This document shows positions 6,127-33,239 of a DNA stretch of 33,239 bases, in pieces (within the stretch, counting starts at the first letter, position 1; every line of letters begins with the position of its first letter). This stretch comes from Acidilobaceae archaeon (GTDB lineage Archaea; Thermoproteota; Thermoprotei_A; Sulfolobales; Acidilobaceae), in NCBI GenBank assembly GCA_027014125.1, contig JALWEI010000025.1, forward strand, positions 1 through 33,239, written 5' to 3'. The notes beneath the pieces are model-generated. The model was given only the letters and a program-made list of their open reading frames with translations, was not told the origin of the DNA and did not search any database. The position numbers and the translations under genes were made by a program.

Positions 6127-7866
6127 ATGCAGGCTCCTAGCAGTGTTTATGAGAAGTACCGGGGTAGGCCTATACTTAGGCTCATCGAGGAGGGCTACTA
6201 TAGGCCCTGGGAGAGGCTCCGTGTGAGGCACATAAGGGGAGGCGGGCTCCATGTCAGGAGCCAGAGCTGGCAGGTCGAGGGCCCTCTTAGGATGCTCTTC
6301 CACGTCCTAGACCCTGAGGTTGCCCGCGACCCTGAGCACCTGATAGTTTATGGGGGCACAGGGAGGGCGGCGAGGAGCTGGGATGCGTTCGAGGCTATAG
6401 TTGATACCCTGATGGAGATGGGGCAGGAGGATACTCTGGTTGTTCAGAGCGGGAAGCCAGTAGCGGTATTCAAGACCCACAGGATGGCTCCTAGGGTGAT
6501 CATAAGCAACGCCATGCTGGTCCCCAAGTGGGCCAACTGGGACTACTTCCGGGAGCTGGAGAAGAGGGGGCTCACTATGTACGGCCAGATGACCGCCGGG
6601 TGCTGGGCCTACATAGGTACACAGGGGATCCTCCAGGGCACATACGAGACCCTAGCGTTCGCGGCCGAGAAGCACTTCCCGGACGGCACCCTGGAGGGTA
6701 GGCTTGTCCTCACCGCTGGCCTTGGCGAGATGGGTGGAGCCCAGCCCCTAGCAGTCAAGATGAATGGAGGGGTGGCTATAGTCGTCGAAGTTGACAAGAG
6801 GATGATAGAGAGGAGGATCAGGCACGGCTACCTTGACACCTGGACTGATAGCATAGACAAGGCCCTAGACATGGCCATTAAGGCCAAGGAGGCCAGGAAG
6901 CCCCTGAGCATAGGCCTCCTAGGCAACGCGGCCGAGGTTTACCAGGAGATCCTGCATAGGGGGATAGTGCCGGACATGGTCACTGATCAAACCCCGGCCC
7001 ACGACCCGCTCAGCTATGTACCTGCCGGGATGAGCCTCGACGAGGCCGAGAGGCTGAGGGATGAGAACCCTCGGGAGTACGAGAGGAGGGCCCTTGAGAG
7101 CATGAAGATGCACGTCAAGGCTATGGTGGAGTTCCAGAGGAAGGGGGCGGTGGTGTTCGAGTACGGCAATAACCTGAGGAAGATGGCCTATGAGGCCGGG
7201 TACAAGGATGCATTCTCCTTCCCAGGATTCGTGCAGGCGTACATAAGGCCCATGTTCGAGGAGGGTAGGGGCCCCTTCAGGTACACCAGCCTAACCGGCG
7301 ATCCAAGTGATATAGATAGGCTAGACGACGAGCTGATAGCGACATTCAAGGACAACAAGAGGCTGGTTAGGTGGGTCGAGAAGGCTAGGAGACACGTCAA
7401 ATTCCAGGGTCTGCCAGCCCGGGTCGTGTGGCTGGGCTACGGGGAGAGGGCAAGGTTCGGGAGGATAATGAACACCCTCGTTAGGCTAGGCGAGATAGGG
7501 CCGATGTGGATCGGGAGGGACCATCTAGACACCGGGAGCGTGGCTAGCCCTTACAGGGAGACGGAGGGGATGAAGGATGGGAGCGACGCCATAGGCGACT
7601 GGCCCGTGCTGAACGCCCTCCTCAACGCGGCGAGCGGGGCCACCTGGGTGTGCTTCCACCATGGTGGGGGCGTGGGTATAGGCTACTCTATACACGCTGG
7701 CATAGGCCTGGTCCTGGATGGTAGCGATGAGAGCATGAGGAGGGCGGAGCTGGTGCTAACCAACGACCCGGGCCTGGGCGTTGTGAGGCACGCGGATGCA
7801 GGGTACGAGAGGGCCCGCGAGGTCGGGTGTAGCAAGGGTATATGGATGCCTATGATGGGATGCTAG
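6127..7866 (+). CDS. hutU: Urocanate hydratase (urocanase)
   Basis: Urocanase uses tightly bound NAD+ as an electrophile to hydrate urocanate to imidazolone propionate, the second step of histidine breakdown. The 579-residue length fits the family. Seen motifs: [12 protein letters not shown] (75-86), [14 protein letters not shown] (155-168), NAD-binding [12 protein letters not shown] (198-209), [13 protein letters not shown] (346-358), and the highly conserved [23 protein letters not shown] (471-493, in parts) and HHGGGVGIG (511-519). As I recall the bacterial enzymes, an active-site Cys precedes the GKGPFRW motif; here that region is [11 protein letters not shown] with Glu at 378 instead. 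No histidase or imidazolonepropionase gene is visible nearby. The metalloprotease gene follows two bases after the stop. Confidence 0.93.
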
Positions 7867-7868
7867 CC

Positions 7869-9509
7869 ATGAGGATCTCGGCTATAATACTGGTAGCCAT
7901 CGTGGTCCTCTCCTCCTACCCAGCCGCGGCTAGCCAGGATGCATGCCTATACAATATTAGCTACCCCATGGCAGTCGTCCCCGTATCCATACCGGACGAT
8001 ATAGTCTCCATGGTTGAACACTCCTTGAGGCCGTGGACAGAGAAGGCCCAGATCCAGGGTTGCATAGTCAATATACACGTGGAACCCATCATAGTTGACG
8101 GCTCCCCGCTGGCCAACCCCCTAACCAGGTACCTTGCTGGCGTATACGAGGACCTCGGTATCCCAGAGTGGATAGATAACCCCGAGATACTAGGCGGGAG
8201 GCCCGTCTACTGGGTCGAGCTGATAGGATTTTATAGGACCCTGTATAACTACACGTACAGCCTCCTACTCTCGACGAATCTAACGGTGGTCGACGCGCTA
8301 GTCGTTATAGGCGACCTAGACGGCGTCTCGAGGCAATACTACTCGTACCGTCCCTACAACTACACTGGCGGCCTCCTACTAGAGGGTGTTAGGGGATGGG
8401 CAGGCCCGCTGCCTATGGCCTTCTACGACCTCACAGTAATCCCCAGGCCCAGGCCAGAGCCCGAGATGCCTTTCTACCCCTACGGGGAGCCGGTTAACTA
8501 TAAGAACGATCCTCCCATATGGGCTGCGAGTAAAAGCTTCATCGCGGAGTACATAGAGGATCTGGCCGTTAGCCACGTTAGGTATCATATAGTGAATGTA
8601 CCTAATGACGGCTTTACTCCATTAGTAGTCCATTATAATATATCTATAGTCAGCTTTGGCAACGACACAGTAGTTCGGGGGGCCCTAGCCCAGGCGTCTC
8701 CCAGGGAGGTGGAGTGGCTTACCAAGACAATGGCTCCGTGGCTGGTTGTAAGGGTTAGTGTTAGGGTTGTGAATGCGTCTAGCATACCTGGGCTCTGGGA
8801 GTACGTCTCGCATCTCCATCCGGCCAGCGATGGGTTCATAGAGATGGATTACTATAAGATCATGGATATACTTAGGAGGCAGGTTAGGGAGCAGGATGCA
8901 TTCCCAAAGTTGACCTACACGTTCTTCGTCCTAGCGACCAGCACTCCATCGAGGATGGTGGCGGGGGAGCTGCGATTCACCGGATTCTCCATGGGCCTGT
9001 GGGGCGCCACTTCCTGGCCCGGCCACGGATACAGGGTGCTGGAGACTGGGCTGCCCAGGATCCTGGCCCACGAGCTCGGCCATAGCCTAGGGCTAGGGCA
9101 CCCGTTCGAATACCAGGAGTATCGCGGGGGCCGCTTCATGAAGTGGTTGATGGATTGGGAGTCCTCGGTCATGAGCTACGATAACAATGTGTTAGCTGGC
9201 TTCCTGGGCGGAGGCCCCTACTACTTTAATAGGTATGAGAGCCTGAGGCTGGCATTCTCCTATATAATATCAATATCGAAGATGCTCTCCTTGGACCGGG
9301 TGGAGGTCGAGGATCTACTCTCCAGTGCCGTGTCAAACCCTCTAGGTGGTGTCGAGGATGCGGCCTGGATCTATAGGAGCTGGGCTAGCCTGCCCTGGGA
9401 GGGCCCCATAGGGCCAGCGGATGATGGCTGGGGTTGGGAGGTCGAGGCTCCCCTGGCCCCGCTCACCCTGGCCATGGCTAGTCTATTCTTGGCGACACGT
9501 AGAAGGTGA
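7869..9509 (+). CDS. Exported, C-terminally anchored metzincin-type zinc metalloprotease
   Basis: The zinc site HELGHSLGLGH (residues 401-411 of the 546-residue product) is the full metzincin HExxHxxGxxH motif, and the required Met-turn follows at ESSVMSYDN (Met435). An N-terminal signal peptide (MRISAIILVAIVVLSS, processing likely after YPAAAS) and a C-terminal hydrophobic segment ending in RRR (about 526-546) suggest that it is displayed outside the cell on a membrane anchor. About 350 residues precede the catalytic part and contain many N-glycosylation sequons (NYT, NLT, NIS, NDT). ATG 7869 is preferred over an in-frame ATG at 7842 because the signal peptide then starts the protein. Operon with hutU; the 3' end overlaps the pcna 3' end by 32 bases. 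The exact subfamily was not identified. Confidence 0.87.
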   Translation: MRISAIILVAIVVLSSYPAAASQDACLYNISYPMAVVPVSIPDDIVSMVEHSLRPWTEKAQIQGCIVNIHVEPIIVDGSPLANPLTRYLAGVYEDLGIPEWIDNPEILGGRPVYWVELIGFYRTLYNYTYSLLLSTNLTVVDALVVIGDLDGVSRQYYSYRPYNYTGGLLLEGVRGWAGPLPMAFYDLTVIPRPRPEPEMPFYPYGEPVNYKNDPPIWAASKSFIAEYIEDLAVSHVRYHIVNVPNDGFTPLVVHYNISIVSFGNDTVVRGALAQASPREVEWLTKTMAPWLVVRVSVRVVNASSIPGLWEYVSHLHPASDGFIEMDYYKIMDILRRQVREQDAFPKLTYTFFVLATSTPSRMVAGELRFTGFSMGLWGATSWPGHGYRVLETGLPRILAHELGHSLGLGHPFEYQEYRGGRFMKWLMDWESSVMSYDNNVLAGFLGGGPYYFNRYESLRLAFSYIISISKMLSLDRVEVEDLLSSAVSNPLGGVEDAAWIYRSWASLPWEGPIGPADDGWGWEVEAPLAPLTLAMASLFLATRRR

Positions 9510-15522: not shown

Positions 15523-15957
15523 ATGGGGTGCCCGGGGTTTAAGCATGAGGAGCATACTGCCGACGTCCTTATAGAGGCGTGGGGTAGGACCCTAGAGGAG
15601 GCGTTCGAGCAGTCGGCCCTGGCTGTTTATGAGGTGATCACCGACACCAGCAAGGTCAAGCCAAAGACTAGGATCGACCTGGGGGTGGAGGGCTTCGACC
15701 TCGAGAACCTGTTGTACCGTTGGGTGGAGGAGATGCTACTCTACACCGATGCGGATGGCATGGTATTCGGGATGTTCAGGGTGTGCAGGATCGAGAAGGG
15801 GGATGAGGGTTATAGGATCGTGTCCTCGGCGTGGGGAGAGAGGTTTGATCCGGAGAGGCATGAGCACCGTACTATAGTGAAGGCTATGACGTATGCCCAG
15901 ATGAGTATAGGCGAGGTCGACGGGTGCTGGAGGATAACTTTCGTCGTGGACATCTAG
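15523..15957 (+). CDS. Archease, activator of RNA ligase RtcB
   Basis: Archease loads and reactivates the tRNA-splicing ligase RtcB, and can modulate other RNA-modifying enzymes. The product (144 residues from ATG 15523) has the defining HTADV near its start (metal-binding Asp14), RWVEEMLLYTDADGMVF in the middle and the C-terminal RHEHRTIVKAMTYAQM block. A GGTGG Shine-Dalgarno supports ATG 15523; ATG 15496 and GTG 15472 are in-frame alternatives that would add up to 17 residues. It follows sir2 by 40 bases and shares a CTAG stop with the convergent archaemetzincin gene. Confidence 0.9.
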   Translation: MGCPGFKHEEHTADVLIEAWGRTLEEAFEQSALAVYEVITDTSKVKPKTRIDLGVEGFDLENLLYRWVEEMLLYTDADGMVFGMFRVCRIEKGDEGYRIVSSAWGERFDPERHEHRTIVKAMTYAQMSIGEVDGCWRITFVVDI

Positions 15958-16544
15958 CCTATGAGCCTGGAGAGTTTCAGAGTGCAGGAGTCGCAGAAGC
16001 CTGGCCCCTTTCTGTCAACATCCCCGACGCTGTTGCTGAACGACATTACGCAGGTAGGGTTGCTACAGTGCTCCAGGCCTAGGAGGTGGCCGACCTCGTG
16101 CGTAATCTCCTTAGCGATCCTTTCCATGTAGAGAGAGGGGCTCGTGGCCCAGAGCCTCTTTGTATATACCGTTGCTACCCCGATTCCGGGGGTGGCTAGG
16201 CCGAAGACGAAGTTTAGCCCTGGTATGTAGCCGTCTCCCTCCACCACCGCTACCAGCATCCTCCTATGGGGCTCCAGGTAACCCTCGAACATGGAGGCCA
16301 GGTGCCTGTTCACATCGTCAGCCCTGTACTGCATCCTGTCCAGGTCCATGAGGCTCATGGGCAGGCTGATCCCTTCTAGGGTGACAAGCATTCTTAGCCC
16401 CCCGGCTGGGCTGAAGGCTCTCGACGCGGCCTCGACCGCTCCTGATAGGAGCTCTAGGTCCCCCATTCCGGCTGGGGCCACTAGCACCGTTGGTCTAGGC
16501 ACCGCCCCTAGCACACCCCTCCAGGCTACATAGCCGAGGTGCAC
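15954..16544 (-). CDS. amzA: Archaemetzincin-type zinc metalloprotease
   Basis: Archaemetzincins are cytosolic-type metzincins with a structural second zinc. The 196-residue product ends in the complete family signature: HEVGHLLGLEH (149-159), followed by C160, C165, a Met at CVMSFSNS, then DRKGPGFCDSC with C184 and C187. No signal peptide is present, which agrees with the family. The start is GTG 16544, about 11 bases after a predicted transcription start, without a visible Shine-Dalgarno. It is divergent from tRNA-Phe and unrelated in subfamily to the large exported metzincin at 7869. The physiological substrate is unknown for the family. Confidence 0.93.
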   Translation of the reverse strand: MHLGYVAWRGVLGAVPRPTVLVAPAGMGDLELLSGAVEAASRAFSPAGGLRMLVTLEGISLPMSLMDLDRMQYRADDVNRHLASMFEGYLEPHRRMLVAVVEGDGYIPGLNFVFGLATPGIGVATVYTKRLWATSPSLYMERIAKEITHEVGHLLGLEHCSNPTCVMSFSNSVGDVDRKGPGFCDSCTLKLSRLIG

Positions 16545-22298: not shown

Positions 22299-22898
22299 AT
22301 GCCTGTCCAGGATGGGGCTGGTGGCGGAGGCTATAGGGTTCTACTAGTGCTAGTCCTGGTCGCGGCTCTCCTCTTTGCCCTGTCATCCTCGGTACAGAGG
22401 CTCTTATCGGATAGTGATGAAGGCTCCTATACATACTCAATAGCATGCCTGGCGCTCCCCGATATTAATGCTAGTGGCAATGCCACCCTGGAGGCTAGGC
22501 TAGCTGGTGTTCACGTTTCAATCAGCGAGGGTCTTATACAAGTGGGTCTACGCTACGAGGTATACAATAAGGGGCCCTCTGCTGTGACGATACTTGGGGT
22601 GGCCTCCTCGTCATGCTCCTTCAACCCGCCTGCTCCCCCGTCTTGGAGGGTTAACGTTAGCCAGTCCTATACGCCCGGATCCGGGGGAGGCCAGGCCTTA
22701 GGGCCGGGTGAGAGGGCTACTATGGAGCTTGAGGCCGCCATATATGCCCCTGACCTTAGGAGGGGCGCTATACTGGATAGTGGCTCCTTTACAATTGTCG
22801 CCGGTTTTGACCCGGAGAAGGGCCTTGTGATCCCCTATAGCTGGGAGCCTGTCGAAATAATCGTTGAGGGGTTGAACGTCACGGTCTCCGCCCGCTAG
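22299..22898 (+). CDS. N-terminally anchored extracytoplasmic protein of unknown function
   Basis: No family was recognised. The 199-residue product has one N-terminal hydrophobic segment, VLLVLVLVAALLFALSSSV (about 14-32), preceded by a short mostly uncharged start, and should place the remaining 165 residues outside the membrane. That part is rich in beta-strand-like, small-residue sequence with several N-glycosylation sequons (NAS, NAT, NVS, NVT). It has two cysteines (IACLALP and SSSCSFN) and a repeated layout of a short strand with Gly/Pro turns, as in beta-sandwich domains (inference). ATG 22299 has GGTGGTG just upstream. It shares its CTAG stop with the convergent secreted Lon-like protease gene. 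Confidence 0.75.
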   Translation: MPVQDGAGGGGYRVLLVLVLVAALLFALSSSVQRLLSDSDEGSYTYSIACLALPDINASGNATLEARLAGVHVSISEGLIQVGLRYEVYNKGPSAVTILGVASSSCSFNPPAPPSWRVNVSQSYTPGSGGGQALGPGERATMELEAAIYAPDLRRGAILDSGSFTIVAGFDPEKGLVIPYSWEPVEIIVEGLNVTVSAR

Positions 22899-24724
22899 CC
22901 CCGCCGGGAGTATGAGAGTGATACCCCGACTATAACACCAAGCGCTAGCCCGAGGAGTAGGCCTGTGGCAACTGCTCCGGGGAGGCTTGGTGCGGCGGGC
23001 TCTTCGTCCCCGGTCTCCTCGGTGATGGTTACTGTTCTTGTGACTGTGGCCGTCGCCTGGGGCTGCTGGGTGGGTCCTGCTATCTGGCTTGTCTCCTCGT
23101 TGTAGCTGATTTGCATCCATGACGCTAGTATGGAGAGGTCTAGGTATGTCCATGCCCTCTCGGTGTCTCCCTGCTCCTTGTAGTACTCGTATGCTTGTAG
23201 TAGTGCTGCCGCCGCTTGTGATCCTGTTCTTCCTGCTAGGCTGTAGGCCAGTTTTTCTGCGTACGGCATTAGGGTCTCCCCGTCGAATGTGTTGTGGATC
23301 GCCGCTGTGGCCATGGCCACTCCTGCCAGGGATAGGTATGCCTTTGCTATCCTGCCTGGCTCCGCGCTTGCCGATACTACTAGCTCTGCCGCGGTGTCTA
23401 GGTTTGGATCCTGCGCCCCAGTTTCTGCGAAGAGTGTCGAGGCATATGCCGTAACTGCTTTGCCTAGGCTGGCTACTATCATAGTCTTGCTGTTAACCCC
23501 CTGGGGCTTGGGCCAGTCTAGGCTTGCTAGGAGGCTGGCATACTCTGCCATGGTCTTTGCATAGGCTATCATTACCAGGGGGCTGTAGTCTATTGCAGGT
23601 CCTGTTATTGTTATTACTCTGGGCAGGCTCCCGTTGTCTAGTGCCTCCTGCGCCTGCCTGAGGTTCGATGCTGCCATCCAGGTGTATATGGATGCCAATC
23701 CCCCGGCCTCAGTGTCTATACCCTCCAGCATGGAGGTGGTCTGGTTTACCGTCTTTATCGCCTCCTCTAGAAGTGGCGTTACATTGTAGTTATTGCTCTT
23801 AGCCTCCTCGATCCACGTGGATGCCTGTAGGAGGGCTATAGCGTCTACCATCTCCCGCGTGGCTGGGAAGTAGAGTCCGTGCCCCGCCAGGTCCTGGGCA
23901 GCCTTGTAGTGCTCCTCCGCACGGCTGGCTACCTCTTCTAGCCCTGTTCCCGTCTTCTTCATCGCCTCGTATGTGCCCTTGAGCCTATTGTATACTTCAT
24001 CCAGCCCTTGTGGAGCCCCGGGCTTGGAGGGGCTTGGCTCGAGGTTTATGCCTAGGAGTAGGTTTGAGGCTTCCCATATGCTTCCAGCCTCCCTGACCTT
24101 TACTCCTAGCTTCTCGCCCTCCTCGCTTAGGTTTACTTGTACTGGCACGGTTCTGACTATTGCCAGGGGACCGATCCTCTGAACCACCCTCTCGTAGGAG
24201 GTGTATACTAGCTGCCCCTTGGGGACTATGAAGAGGGTGCCCCCGCCCTCTGCTACCGCCTTTAACTTATCCTTCAGGCCTCCTACCGGGCCTATTGTGG
24301 AGTCCGGGTATATCATCCCTGTGATCACGTTTGGGGTTCTGCATTGTATCCCTGAGAGGGCGGCTATTGTTGCTAGCGTCATCGCTGCCCCCGCGCTGGG
24401 GCCCCCCACTATTATGCTTGGGGCCTCTAGCCTATAGTAGAAGTCGTATTTCTCTATGTCTAGTCCCAGGATGAGTGTGGCGGTGAATGCTGCTATCCTG
24501 GCTGCCCCCTGAGTGTCGATCTCCGTTGCCGGGCTTGTGCTTATGTACACTCTCCCCTCTCCTGGTGTTACCCTTACACTTATGTTGCCAAGGACCCCGC
24601 CTCCCCCTGTTGATACTGCTGCTATCCTGAGCGTGCACTCTCCCACGGTGTCGCTGTGTGATGGAATTGGTGTTGCCGTTAGGAGTGTTAGTATGATGAT
24701 AGCTAGGGCTATGCCCGTCTTCAT
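22895..24724 (-). CDS. Exported Lon-like (S16-type) serine protease, membrane-anchored
   Basis: The 609-residue product begins with a signal peptide (MKTGIALAIIILTLLTATPI) and ends with a C-terminal membrane helix (GLLLGLALGVIVGVSLSY, then SRRG). Between residues 60 and 200 lies a Lon-type proteolytic domain: catalytic Ser110 in VGGPSAGAAMTLA and Lys151 in GPVGGLKDKLKAV. It has no AAA+ ATPase domain, unlike cytosolic or membrane LonB, and matches the archaeal group of predicted secreted serine proteases (COG1750). About 330 mostly alpha-helical residues follow, then a Thr/Glu-rich linker before the anchor. The product likely works outside the cell without ATP. ATG 24724. Confidence 0.87.
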   Translation of the reverse strand: MKTGIALAIIILTLLTATPIPSHSDTVGECTLRIAAVSTGGGGVLGNISVRVTPGEGRVYISTSPATEIDTQGAARIAAFTATLILGLDIEKYDFYYRLEAPSIIVGGPSAGAAMTLATIAALSGIQCRTPNVITGMIYPDSTIGPVGGLKDKLKAVAEGGGTLFIVPKGQLVYTSYERVVQRIGPLAIVRTVPVQVNLSEEGEKLGVKVREAGSIWEASNLLLGINLEPSPSKPGAPQGLDEVYNRLKGTYEAMKKTGTGLEEVASRAEEHYKAAQDLAGHGLYFPATREMVDAIALLQASTWIEEAKSNNYNVTPLLEEAIKTVNQTTSMLEGIDTEAGGLASIYTWMAASNLRQAQEALDNGSLPRVITITGPAIDYSPLVMIAYAKTMAEYASLLASLDWPKPQGVNSKTMIVASLGKAVTAYASTLFAETGAQDPNLDTAAELVVSASAEPGRIAKAYLSLAGVAMATAAIHNTFDGETLMPYAEKLAYSLAGRTGSQAAAALLQAYEYYKEQGDTERAWTYLDLSILASWMQISYNEETSQIAGPTQQPQATATVTRTVTITEETGDEEPAAPSLPGAVATGLLLGLALGVIVGVSLSYSRRG

Positions 24725-30093: not shown

Positions 30094-30662
30094 TCATACT
30101 CCACGTCTCCGACCCCCACTGCGCGACGGGGGTGCTGAGGAGGATCCTGGGGGAGGCTAGCTACGACCTGGTCGCCGCTACCGGGGATTATGAGTGCCTC
30201 GACACTGCCGAGGCCCTGCTGGGTGCAGGGGGCCGGGTTGTTGCTGTTACTGGTAACATGGATACCCCCGCGATCCGTAGGCGCCTCCAGGAGGCTGGCG
30301 TGCTGGTGGAGGGTAGGGTAGCCACAGTCTCGGGGCTGAGCGTGGCTGGGGTTGGGGGCCTGGATCCTGCGGGGACCATGGCTAGGCTGGGGGGTAGCGC
30401 TGAGGTCCTCCTGAGCCACCATCCCCCTCGGGGGGTGCTGGACCTCACCCTCCTAGGCGTCCATGCTGGGCTCGACGAGCTCGTGGAGGTGGCCTCTAGG
30501 CTGGGGGCCCGGCTGCACCTCTTCGGGCATATCCACGAGAGCCCCGGGTTTAGGGTGGAGTGGGGCCGGCTCCACGTTAATCCTGGGCCTGCGCTTGAGG
30601 GTAGGTATGCGGTTATCGATTATCCCCGCGGGGTGGTGTCGCTGGGGAGGGTTAGAGTGTAG
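30090..30662 (+). CDS. Calcineurin-like metallophosphoesterase (YfcE/MJ0936-like)
   Basis: The 190-residue product has the complete metal-binding series of the family: D8-x-H10 (SDPH), GD33 (TGDYE), GN56 (TGNMD), H110 (LSHHPP) and GHIH (H147, H149). Archaeal members hydrolyse phosphodiesters in vitro, with unclear natural substrates. GTG 30090 overlaps the dehydrogenase stop, and GGGAGG lies directly upstream, so the two genes form an operon. Its last 43 bases overlap the convergent MFS transporter gene. The call is secure for the fold and metal centre, open for the substrate. Confidence 0.9.
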   Translation: MIILHVSDPHCATGVLRRILGEASYDLVAATGDYECLDTAEALLGAGGRVVAVTGNMDTPAIRRRLQEAGVLVEGRVATVSGLSVAGVGGLDPAGTMARLGGSAEVLLSHHPPRGVLDLTLLGVHAGLDELVEVASRLGARLHLFGHIHESPGFRVEWGRLHVNPGPALEGRYAVIDYPRGVVSLGRVRV

Positions 30663-31777
30663 GCGGCCGCCACTAGTAGGCTGGCCGCTACCACCCATGC
30701 TACCCCTGCTAGTCCGTGGGTTGATGCTACTCCCCCTATGGGTGCCCCTACTGCTACTCCTGCTATGTTTGCCACCTGCTGTATAGCCATGCTGGTCCCC
30801 CGTGCCTCCCTTGGAGCCTGGGCTGCTAGGTAGGTGCTCGCCGTCATGAGGCCTGCGATGGTTGCCCCGTATAGGGTGAATCCTGCTAGTATCCCGGGTG
30901 TGCCCCTGGTTAGTGCTATCCATAGGCCTGCTAGGCCTATGGCTGCTGATGCCGCCGTGACTAGGCGGAGCTGGCCCTTGTCTAGCCTGGAGCCGGCTAG
31001 GGGGAAGAGTGGTATGCTTGCTAGCGTGGCGACTCCTATGGCTGCCCCTGTCAGGGCTGATGCCTCCTCCTCTGCCCTGGCTAGGCCGTCGTTTAGTAGT
31101 GCCTGGGGCATGCCTCCTACTATGGCCCCGAAGCCTGTGTAGAGGAGGAATATCAGGATCCCGGCTCCTGCTACTAGCCCTCGAGCCTCTGAGAGGCCCC
31201 TGGCTAGGCTTCCGCCCCTGCTCCCGGTCTCGGGGAGGCCCCTGGTGGATAGGAGGCCTGCCAGCAGGATTAGGGCTATGAGTAGGAAGGAGGGTTTGAA
31301 TCCTAGCCTAGAGACTGCTGCCGCTGAGGAGAGGCTTCCTAGGGCTACTGATGCTGCTACTACCGAGAGGTATCTGCCTGTTGATGATCCTAGCCTGCCC
31401 TTTGGGGCTGTGTCCCCTACTATGGCCATGTAGGCTGGGTAGACTAGGCTCCCGCCTAGTGCGTGTAGCCCCCTGACGGCGGCGAGCTGGGTGGGGCTTG
31501 ATGCTAGGGCGTAGCCTGTCATGGATAGGGTGTCCCATGCTAGTCCTATGGCTAGGCTCCGTTTCCTGCCGATCTTGTCTACTATGATCCCCGCTGCTAT
31601 GCTTGCGGGGAGGGCTACCATGCTGTAGAGCCCGGCTATGAGGCCTGCCTGCTCGTCCCCTGCCCCCAGGCTTTTTGCGTACCCGGCTATGAGGCCTAGT
31701 AGGAATGCCGTGTCCATCACTCCTGCCAGGCCTACTATGGCTAGTTGTATCCTCCAGCGCTCCACCCCGTTGTGCAC
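30620..31777 (-). CDS. Major facilitator superfamily transporter
   Basis: The 385-residue product is almost entirely hydrophobic, with about twelve membrane helices and few loops. The MFS signature between helices 2 and 3 is visible as DKIGRKRSL (about 67-75), and the middle cytoplasmic loop is around residues 188-205 (PETGSRGGSLARG). Substrate cannot be inferred; the layout resembles drug/proton antiporters. GTG 31777 is the longest start, but its GGAGG lies immediately next to it, so GTG 31765 may be used instead. The 3' end overlaps the phosphoesterase gene by 43 bases. A TATA box is at 31816-31823. Confidence 0.88.
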   Translation of the reverse strand: MHNGVERWRIQLAIVGLAGVMDTAFLLGLIAGYAKSLGAGDEQAGLIAGLYSMVALPASIAAGIIVDKIGRKRSLAIGLAWDTLSMTGYALASSPTQLAAVRGLHALGGSLVYPAYMAIVGDTAPKGRLGSSTGRYLSVVAASVALGSLSSAAAVSRLGFKPSFLLIALILLAGLLSTRGLPETGSRGGSLARGLSEARGLVAGAGILIFLLYTGFGAIVGGMPQALLNDGLARAEEEASALTGAAIGVATLASIPLFPLAGSRLDKGQLRLVTAASAAIGLAGLWIALTRGTPGILAGFTLYGATIAGLMTASTYLAAQAPREARGTSMAIQQVANIAGVAVGAPIGGVASTHGLAGVAWVVAASLLVAAAYTLTLPSDTTPRG

Positions 31778-31833: not shown

Positions 31834-32658
31834 CTATCCTCCCCCCGTTATTACGTGTATCCTGTTTCCGGTGACTGGGTCTGGGGGGAGCTCTTGTAGC
31901 CCCTCGAGTGCCTCTAGGGGGTCCTCTCCTGACCCTACTGCTTTGGCGAACCTCGCTATCGCCTCATCGACTGTCTGCCACTGTACTAGGCCTTGGAAGC
32001 CTGCGTACCCCGAGGCTCCTTTGCTGAGGAGTATCTCGCCGAGGACTGGGTCTAGCTCCTCGTCGCCCATTCCATAGCATGCACCTACCAGTATCACCGT
32101 GCCGTTGAAGTAGTAGGGGGTCTCCTCGAAGTAGCGGGGGCCTAGGGCCAGGTATCGTGGCAGCCCCTGGAGCTCCTCCTCGCTGACTGGGGCCAGGGGG
32201 CCGCCGGGGGGTATGACTGCCATCGCCGCCAGGCCCTGGTCTAGCATTGTGATGACCCTGCCCCCCACCTCCTCCTCTGCCTCCTCAACGAGGAGGCCCG
32301 TGTATATGTATGGGCCCCGCGGGCCCTGGCTCCCGTTGCTGTAGGCCCCGTGGCTCCTGATAATCACTATGTCATAGGCGTCTAGCATATCCATCTCCAG
32401 GATCCCAGCGTCGCTGCCCAGCCTCACGTCGACCACGTACCCGGCCTTGCCGAGCTCCTCTACAACCAAGTCGACCAGCGTCTCGTTGGGGTAGGCCCTC
32501 CACAGCGGGTCGTAGTAGAGAGCCCTAGGGACGAGGCTAACCGTGACGCCGGTATCGACGGCGTCCCCACCCCTCAGCTCCAGGGCCGCAACAGCAGCTA
32601 CTAGGACTAGTAGCAGGGCGAGCGGCCATATCCTACGCCTTCCACGCAACCACTGCAC
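31834..32658 (-). CDS. Membrane-anchored, exported protein with clan CD (caspase/CHAT-like) signature
   Basis: The 274-residue product starts with a basic stretch and one hydrophobic helix (WPLALLLVLVAAVAALEL, about 11-28), so the rest should be outside. Two blocks stand out: hydrophobic-His-Gly at AYDIVIIRSHGAY (His103), and hydrophobic-Ala-Cys at GTVILVGACYGMG (Cys194). This is the catalytic dyad pattern of clan CD cysteine peptidases (caspases, gingipains, clostripain, CHAT). After the Cys comes EILLSKGASGYAGFQGLV and then TVDEAIARFAKAVGSGEDPLEAL, which mirrors the GA-x-x-h-G and F-x-x-L-x-x-G...AL features of CHAT/C25 domains. Family assignment is by pattern, not by search. GTG 32658 is nearly leaderless. 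The gene lies next to, and in the direction of, the 23S rRNA gene. Confidence 0.8.
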   Translation of the reverse strand: MQWLRGRRRIWPLALLLVLVAAVAALELRGGDAVDTGVTVSLVPRALYYDPLWRAYPNETLVDLVVEELGKAGYVVDVRLGSDAGILEMDMLDAYDIVIIRSHGAYSNGSQGPRGPYIYTGLLVEEAEEEVGGRVITMLDQGLAAMAVIPPGGPLAPVSEEELQGLPRYLALGPRYFEETPYYFNGTVILVGACYGMGDEELDPVLGEILLSKGASGYAGFQGLVQWQTVDEAIARFAKAVGSGEDPLEALEGLQELPPDPVTGNRIHVITGGG

Positions 32659-32849
32659 CCAGGACGCGGCCTTGGGGCGGTGAGGGGGTTATAGGAGGTT
32701 CCACGCGCCGCCCCCACCAGCACGGCGGGCCACGGGGATACATCCCTCCGGGGGCATTTCCCAGCGCCTGGCCATGGGGGCCTCTGGGCCCCTGGCGGCC
32801 CCACTGCGGGCTACACCATTATACGCCGTGCAGCCCGCCCCCAGGTGAG
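32659..32849. other. Intergenic spacer downstream of 23S rRNA
   Basis: This 191-base, very G+C-rich gap holds the TATA-like element near 32690 and otherwise nothing that I recognise. No 5S rRNA or tRNA is visible, and no clear U-rich terminator for the rRNA transcript. GGCGGGCT (32877-32884, inside the rRNA) is complementary to AGCCCGCC (32832-32839), so part of the spacer can pair with the rRNA 3' end and may belong to a processing stem. Confidence 0.5.
32688..32695 (-). promoter_or_regulatory. TATA-like element for the clan CD-like gene
   Basis: CCTATAAC on the minus strand centred about 33 bases before the GTG, predicting a start near 32665. Inferred. Confidence 0.4.

Positions 32850-33239
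<390 letters not shown>

Follow-up and report, generated by a model that had tools for sequence, protein, structure and literature searches.

An exported caspase/CHAT-like protein family of Thermoproteota is associated with surface proteins carrying a C-terminal VGG tail

The window (the whole stretch of 33,239 nucleotides analyzed here, from an Acidilobaceae archaeon) encodes a protein that, judging from conserved residues and a predicted structure, is probably an exported, membrane-anchored cysteine peptidase with a caspase/CHAT-like fold, and that represents an undescribed archaeal family (as judged from the open-access literature, Pfam as of 2025 and NCBIfam as of 2026). Genes of this family are found next to, and in the same genomes as, genes encoding secreted proteins that end in a three-part tail with a VGG motif. 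The window protein is likely, in our view, to be an extracellular enzyme of clan CD. In a manner resembling PorU or GPI transamidase, it would cut surface proteins at VGG and perhaps also transfer them. The association suggests an archaeal system, undescribed so far, for trimming and perhaps anchoring cell-surface proteins.

The gene is an ORF of 274 codons on the minus strand (31834–32658), with a GTG start at 32658 and a stop codon ending at 31834. Its next neighbor downstream, after a gap of 56 bp, encodes an MFS-type transporter (30620–31777, minus strand), and its upstream neighbor is the end of an archaeal 23S rRNA gene (32849–33239, minus strand; Rfam RF02540), which is cut by the window end. 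The nearest relative (69% identity) is found in the same genus, where an MFS-type gene follows too (L070). The window protein has one N-terminal membrane helix (residues 10–28; 32575–32631, minus strand), preceded by an Arg-rich start (RGRRR), modeled as a helix by AlphaFold2 and matched in the homologs by a single hydrophobic N-terminal segment; the ectodomain that follows bears His103 (within AYDIVIIRSHGAY) and Cys194 (within GTVILVGACYGMG). The original prediction had pointed to this ORF, the helix and both residues, as well as to GASGYAGF and a DEAIARF...EDPLEAL helix (both present in the sequence and in the AlphaFold2 model), and all of these hold, with the minus strand as the coding strand.

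We aligned the window protein with 71 homologs from Thermoproteota (72 rows). Four residues are invariant (72/72): Asp50, where strand 1 ends (32509–32511), His103, Cys194, the putative nucleophile (32077–32079), and Gly214 of the KGAS motif (32017–32019, all on the minus strand). Arg101, which forms an Arg101-Ser-His103 stretch (32350–32358, minus strand), is kept in 68 of the 72 rows, as is Asp231. The invariance of His103 and Cys194 excludes a chance occurrence of the His/Cys layout, and provides at the sequence level the conserved dyad of clan CD. The original prediction had described the layout as exactly His-Gly...Ala/Gly-Cys: the His, the Cys and a small residue before the Cys (G 31, S 28, T 7, A 6) are indeed found in every row, but the His-Gly part was overstated, as fewer than half of the sequences have Gly after the His (G 34, S 19, T 8, A 7, others 4). 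The window protein itself has HG and AC at these positions, and the motifs of the most divergent rows are YIN(S/T)HG and DAC(F/Y/H)S.

Of 147 related genomes, 35 gave relatives at E<=1, the weakest of which are chance matches; a profile search of 229 genomes of the class identified the family in about 38, with a clean gap in E-values (1e-27 versus 5e-4), and in a phylum-wide sample 63 of 398 genomes carry it. The named relatives are from metagenome-assembled genomes of Acidilobaceae, Pyrodictiaceae, Thermodiscus and Tiamatella. Their loci were gathered with an alignment of the closer relatives, one spanning every subgroup being too diverse. Structure prediction drew on the window and the loci gathered as related to it. 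In one genome (G075, L072:965-1830) the family gene is split into two ORFs, by a frameshift, a pseudogene or an assembly error.

The AlphaFold2 model has a pLDDT of 84.6 for the whole chain and 90.4 for the ectodomain (pTM 0.91). In this model, His103 and Cys194 are each two residues past a beta strand (97–101 and 188–192, respectively). In caspases, the catalytic His and Cys likewise come just after strands. The predicted model shows a caspase-like alpha/beta fold with the two residues at strand ends. The best PDB matches of the ectodomain model in Foldseek are a SAVED-CHAT filament (8.6e-6), caspase-9 (1.9e-4) and the CHAT protease Csx29/Craspase (4.8e-4 to about 7e-4). TM-scores are modest (0.41–0.47 on query length) and flavodoxins come close behind, so we call the fold caspase/CHAT-like and name no single family. 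We regard it as very improbable that the protein is no peptidase and instead an alpha/beta domain, flavodoxin-like or otherwise, in which the His and Cys play a structural part: flavodoxins do appear in the Foldseek lists with TM-scores of about 0.5 on target length, but CHAT proteins and caspases top the ranking, the His and Cys are invariant and each comes right after a strand as in caspases, and one divergent homolog (L108, with YINSHG and DACHSG) reaches the Pfam CHAT cut-off, if narrowly (24.3 versus 24.0). Neither of the refuting conditions attached to the original prediction, a dyad not conserved among homologs or a different predicted fold, was borne out, and its reading of an exported, probable cysteine peptidase with a caspase/CHAT fold from an undescribed archaeal family is supported.

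Apart from that one remote homolog, no Pfam, NCBIfam or PDB sequence model scores above cut-off against the family; the window protein has no match above cut-off in any of the three, and single-sequence searches of phages and genome contigs with it were also empty. Below threshold, homologs match Peptidase_C25 (PF01364, E 0.0066) and CHAT (PF12770). No match to C13 (legumain/PIGK) was seen for the window protein or the family in Pfam or PDB sequence searches, and by sequence the protein falls in none of C13, C25, C14, CHAT, sortase and archaeosortase. A defense or death effector outside the cell had also been suggested at the outset. Such a peptidase would act against viruses or competitors; in its favor, the solved fold closest to the protein is CHAT, whose proteases serve in CRISPR- and CBASS-type defense. 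But PADLOC gave 0 significant matches among 27 members, no phage match or relative on a viral contig was found, and the neighbors are surface proteins, not defense genes; we reject this role on these grounds and consider it barely credible. The CHAT defense proteases (SAVED-CHAT, Csx29/Craspase) are cytoplasmic and carry TPR or SAVED sensor domains, whereas the window protein is a lone, presumably exported ectodomain below the CHAT cut-off.

We infer the likely job of the family from its gene neighborhood. Of 100 genes adjoining family members, 26 encode a signal peptide together with a C-terminal TM helix, versus 8 of 232 genes far from them (p=5e-9). VGG tails are likewise concentrated near family genes (23 of 130 near genes versus 3 of 372 far genes, p=8e-12). 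In the same near/far count IGG shows a slight excess (4 versus 0), and LGG, PGG, TGG, AGG and SGG tails show no enrichment near family genes. The tails share a layout of P-x-(L/x)-VGG-(E/D/T), often with the Pro and a Glu, and after it come a spacer of median length 14, a membrane-spanning helix and a basic end. All 45 tabulated tails are positive in net charge over their last eight residues. The bodies of these VGG-tailed neighbors include CARDB, DUF11, SpaA and carboxypeptidase-regulatory domains, and none of the NCBIfam sorting-signal models matches the neighbors' tails above cut-off. VGG adjacency is scattered through the family, with 13 changes of state on the family tree. In the clade of the window protein itself, 0 of 15 members have a VGG gene within 500 bp (strict count); in one case (L126) a mini VGG gene is located at a distance of about 1.7 kb, and another (L125) has a GGGEI variant next door. 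The earlier suggestion of a role in cell-wall maturation can be kept in a narrower form, as an association with VGG-tailed surface proteins by adjacency and, as given below, by co-occurrence.

The genome of the window (1.79 of 1.82 Mb covered) encodes seven secreted VGG-tailed proteins with unrelated bodies: 1005 aa (C3:10315-13329, plus strand), 498 aa (C5:48686-50179, minus), 290 aa (C22:41195-42064, minus), 975 aa (C26:78799-81723, plus), 263 aa (C26:81857-82645, minus), 1336 aa (C28:58584-62591, plus) and 503 aa (C43:3773-5281, minus). Their bodies are two DUF11 paralogs, a VWA protein, a subtilase, a beta-propeller, an MG2/Ig-like protein and one weak propeller match. In BLAST comparisons the VWA protein (tail peptide YTPPLVGGEARLAAS) and the DUF11 proteins are alike only in the tail; a shared motif, TM helix and basic end thus recur on unrelated bodies, as in tripartite sorting signals. 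LVGG occurs six times in the 75 pre-helix stretches of this genome, versus 0.24 in shuffles. Neither a sortase (PF04203) nor an exosortase/archaeosortase (PF09721) was found in this genome, and control genomes gave matches in the same searches. The genome also has a second family member (L093:4981-5781, contig C46), in a same-strand cluster with two secreted C-terminal-helix proteins (445 aa, and 275 aa and beta-helix-like), both without VGG; a different tail specificity of this paralog is possible.

Across genomes, the family and the tail go together. A VGG match was counted where a match to the profile covered VGG (start <=3, E<0.002, thresholds chosen by hand), and tails were read at true C-termini. 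Among the 229 class genomes, 25 of 38 with the family have a VGG match versus 8 of 191 without it (p=3e-17), although 18 of those 25 also contributed tails to the profile. For genomes outside profile building, the counts are 7 of 20 versus 8 of 191 (p=9e-5), and for high-quality genomes 11 of 15 versus 1 of 107 (p=1e-11). Of the eight genomes with a VGG match and no family gene, seven are 55–78% complete; the other, G146, is 99% complete (L321). A VGG-like tail without a detected family gene was also seen in G032 (L163; 99% complete), with an earlier profile only, and a repeat search of G032 for a missed family gene found none. The tails of G032 and G146 imply either another enzyme or a missed family gene. 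Conversely, G016, G063, G071 and G105 have a family gene, and a VGG tail was looked for there and not found. The cases of G032 and G146, together with the lack of adjacent VGG genes in the window's clade and the VGG-free neighbors of the paralog on C46, would fit an explanation in which VGG tails and the caspase-fold family cluster as surface-protein genes, some other enzyme processes VGG, and the window protein acts on a different substrate (for example its own partner or the S-layer). We think this unlikely, as VGG adjacency extends across much of the family tree, co-occurrence is strong and the window's genome yielded no sortase or exosortase. In addition, VGG tails persist in the genomes where the window's subgroup is the only one found (G006, G012, G018, G020, G035, G056 and G066), which ties this subgroup to the motif though VGG genes are not adjacent to it.

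For an enzyme acting at VGG, we infer the following course of catalysis, with its cleavage site, transfer and acceptor. The window protein would be a type II membrane-anchored cysteine peptidase with an extracellular, caspase/CHAT-like ectodomain (MEROPS clan CD), and its substrates would be secreted surface proteins of the same cell with the three-part VGG signal at the C-terminus. The helix and basic end of the tail would keep the precursor in the membrane, with VGG close to the active site; Cys194, activated by His103, would attack at or beside Gly-Gly, and the helix would be removed. The surface protein, held as a thioester, could then be freed by water or handed to an amine of a partner (a lipid, a glycan or the S-layer), as happens with sortase, PorU and GPI transamidase; we put transfer, as against plain hydrolysis, at about even odds. 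A Gly cleavage site is unusual in clan CD, GPI transamidase apart. Known clan CD peptidases mostly cut after Arg, Lys, Asp or Asn (PMC12445089).

An enzyme that cleaves VGG-tailed proteins and does nothing else, shedding or maturing them by release from the membrane without attachment, would fit the same data as the proposal above. No acceptor or ligation is evident from the sequences, and the window's organism has a VGG-tailed subtilase, an enzyme for which release is conceivable. We nevertheless find cleavage without any transfer somewhat doubtful: as a rule, tails with this tripartite form are substrates of transpeptidases (LPXTG/sortase, PGF-CTERM/archaeosortase), and the bodies that bear VGG tails are adhesin-like (CARDB, DUF11, SpaA, VWA), a type usually retained, neither point being decisive.

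Several known systems resemble parts of the proposed enzyme–signal pair; the nearest functional analogs are GPI transamidase, PorU and, as regards the tail, archaeosortase/PGF. PorU, the type IX secretion sortase (C25 gingipain-like, clan CD), is a transpeptidase that removes a C-terminal signal and anchors many unrelated surface proteins (PMC8545088, PMC4560394); however, it reads a folded Ig-like C-terminal domain at the bacterial outer membrane, whereas here a short VGG motif and a helix are found in an archaeon, and the C25 match in the window family, from a homolog, is sub-threshold. PIGK/GPI8, the catalytic subunit of GPI transamidase (MEROPS C13, clan CD), is also a membrane-bound His-Cys enzyme outside the cytosol. 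Its substrates have a small residue, a spacer of 8–12 residues and a hydrophobic C-terminal stretch (PMC9098846), comparable to VGG, about 14 residues and a helix. The likeness is functional, as no sequence relationship between PIGK and the window family is detectable; in addition, PIGK is part of a five-subunit complex that acts on GPI, and, unlike VGG tails, the signals for GPI lack a consensus motif. In archaea, ArtA processes PGF-CTERM tails, also tripartite, on many unrelated surface proteins, the S-layer protein included (PMC5744192). The tripartite tail on unrelated bodies is shared with VGG proteins, but archaeosortases are multi-pass membrane enzymes (PF09721) that use a PGF motif, whereas the window protein has a caspase-like predicted fold and one helix. 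GlyGly-CTERM/rhombosortase and MYXO-CTERM/myxosortase likewise combine a motif, a helix and a basic end with many substrates per enzyme (PMC3237569, PMC11980579), but these enzymes are intramembrane proteases of other folds from bacterial systems.

More tentatively, Thermoproteota may have an anchoring system of their own, with a caspase-fold transamidase of one helix that would cleave VGG tails and attach the proteins to a lipid or glycan of the archaeon. Such an enzyme would match the eukaryotic GPI transamidase in function among prokaryotes, and may be distantly related to it. If the window protein is a transamidase, it would offer a prokaryotic caspase-fold parallel to that enzyme. We found no description in searchable papers of how C-terminal tails are handled in Thermoproteota without a recognizable archaeosortase, and no paper in PubMed Central linking sorting signal, VGG and archaea. 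The family and the VGG tail form a testable enzyme–signal pair, with seven predicted substrates in the window's genome, and together they permit the annotation of surface proteins throughout a phylum.

Three other genes in the window drew attention. They encode a secreted 555-aa protein without VGG, which has a zinc site of metzincin type (HELGHSLGLGH) and whose hydrophobic C-terminus ends in RRR (7842–9509, plus strand); an archaemetzincin-like protein (15954–16544, minus strand); and a secreted 609-aa Lon-like protein with a GPSAGAAM motif and a C-terminal helix (22895–24724, minus strand).

We also observed mini-proteins of 77–133 aa (stop-to-stop frames) that comprise little beyond a signal peptide and, after a few residues, a (V)VGGE(L/V)-like motif followed by a helix and a basic end, at loci of other genomes (L144, L146, L155/L180, L301, L182, L308, L310, L126, L320 and L143). 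They lie near the caspase-fold gene in G198, G011 and G124, and are possibly an acceptor, a pilin-like subunit or a decoy of the VGG system.
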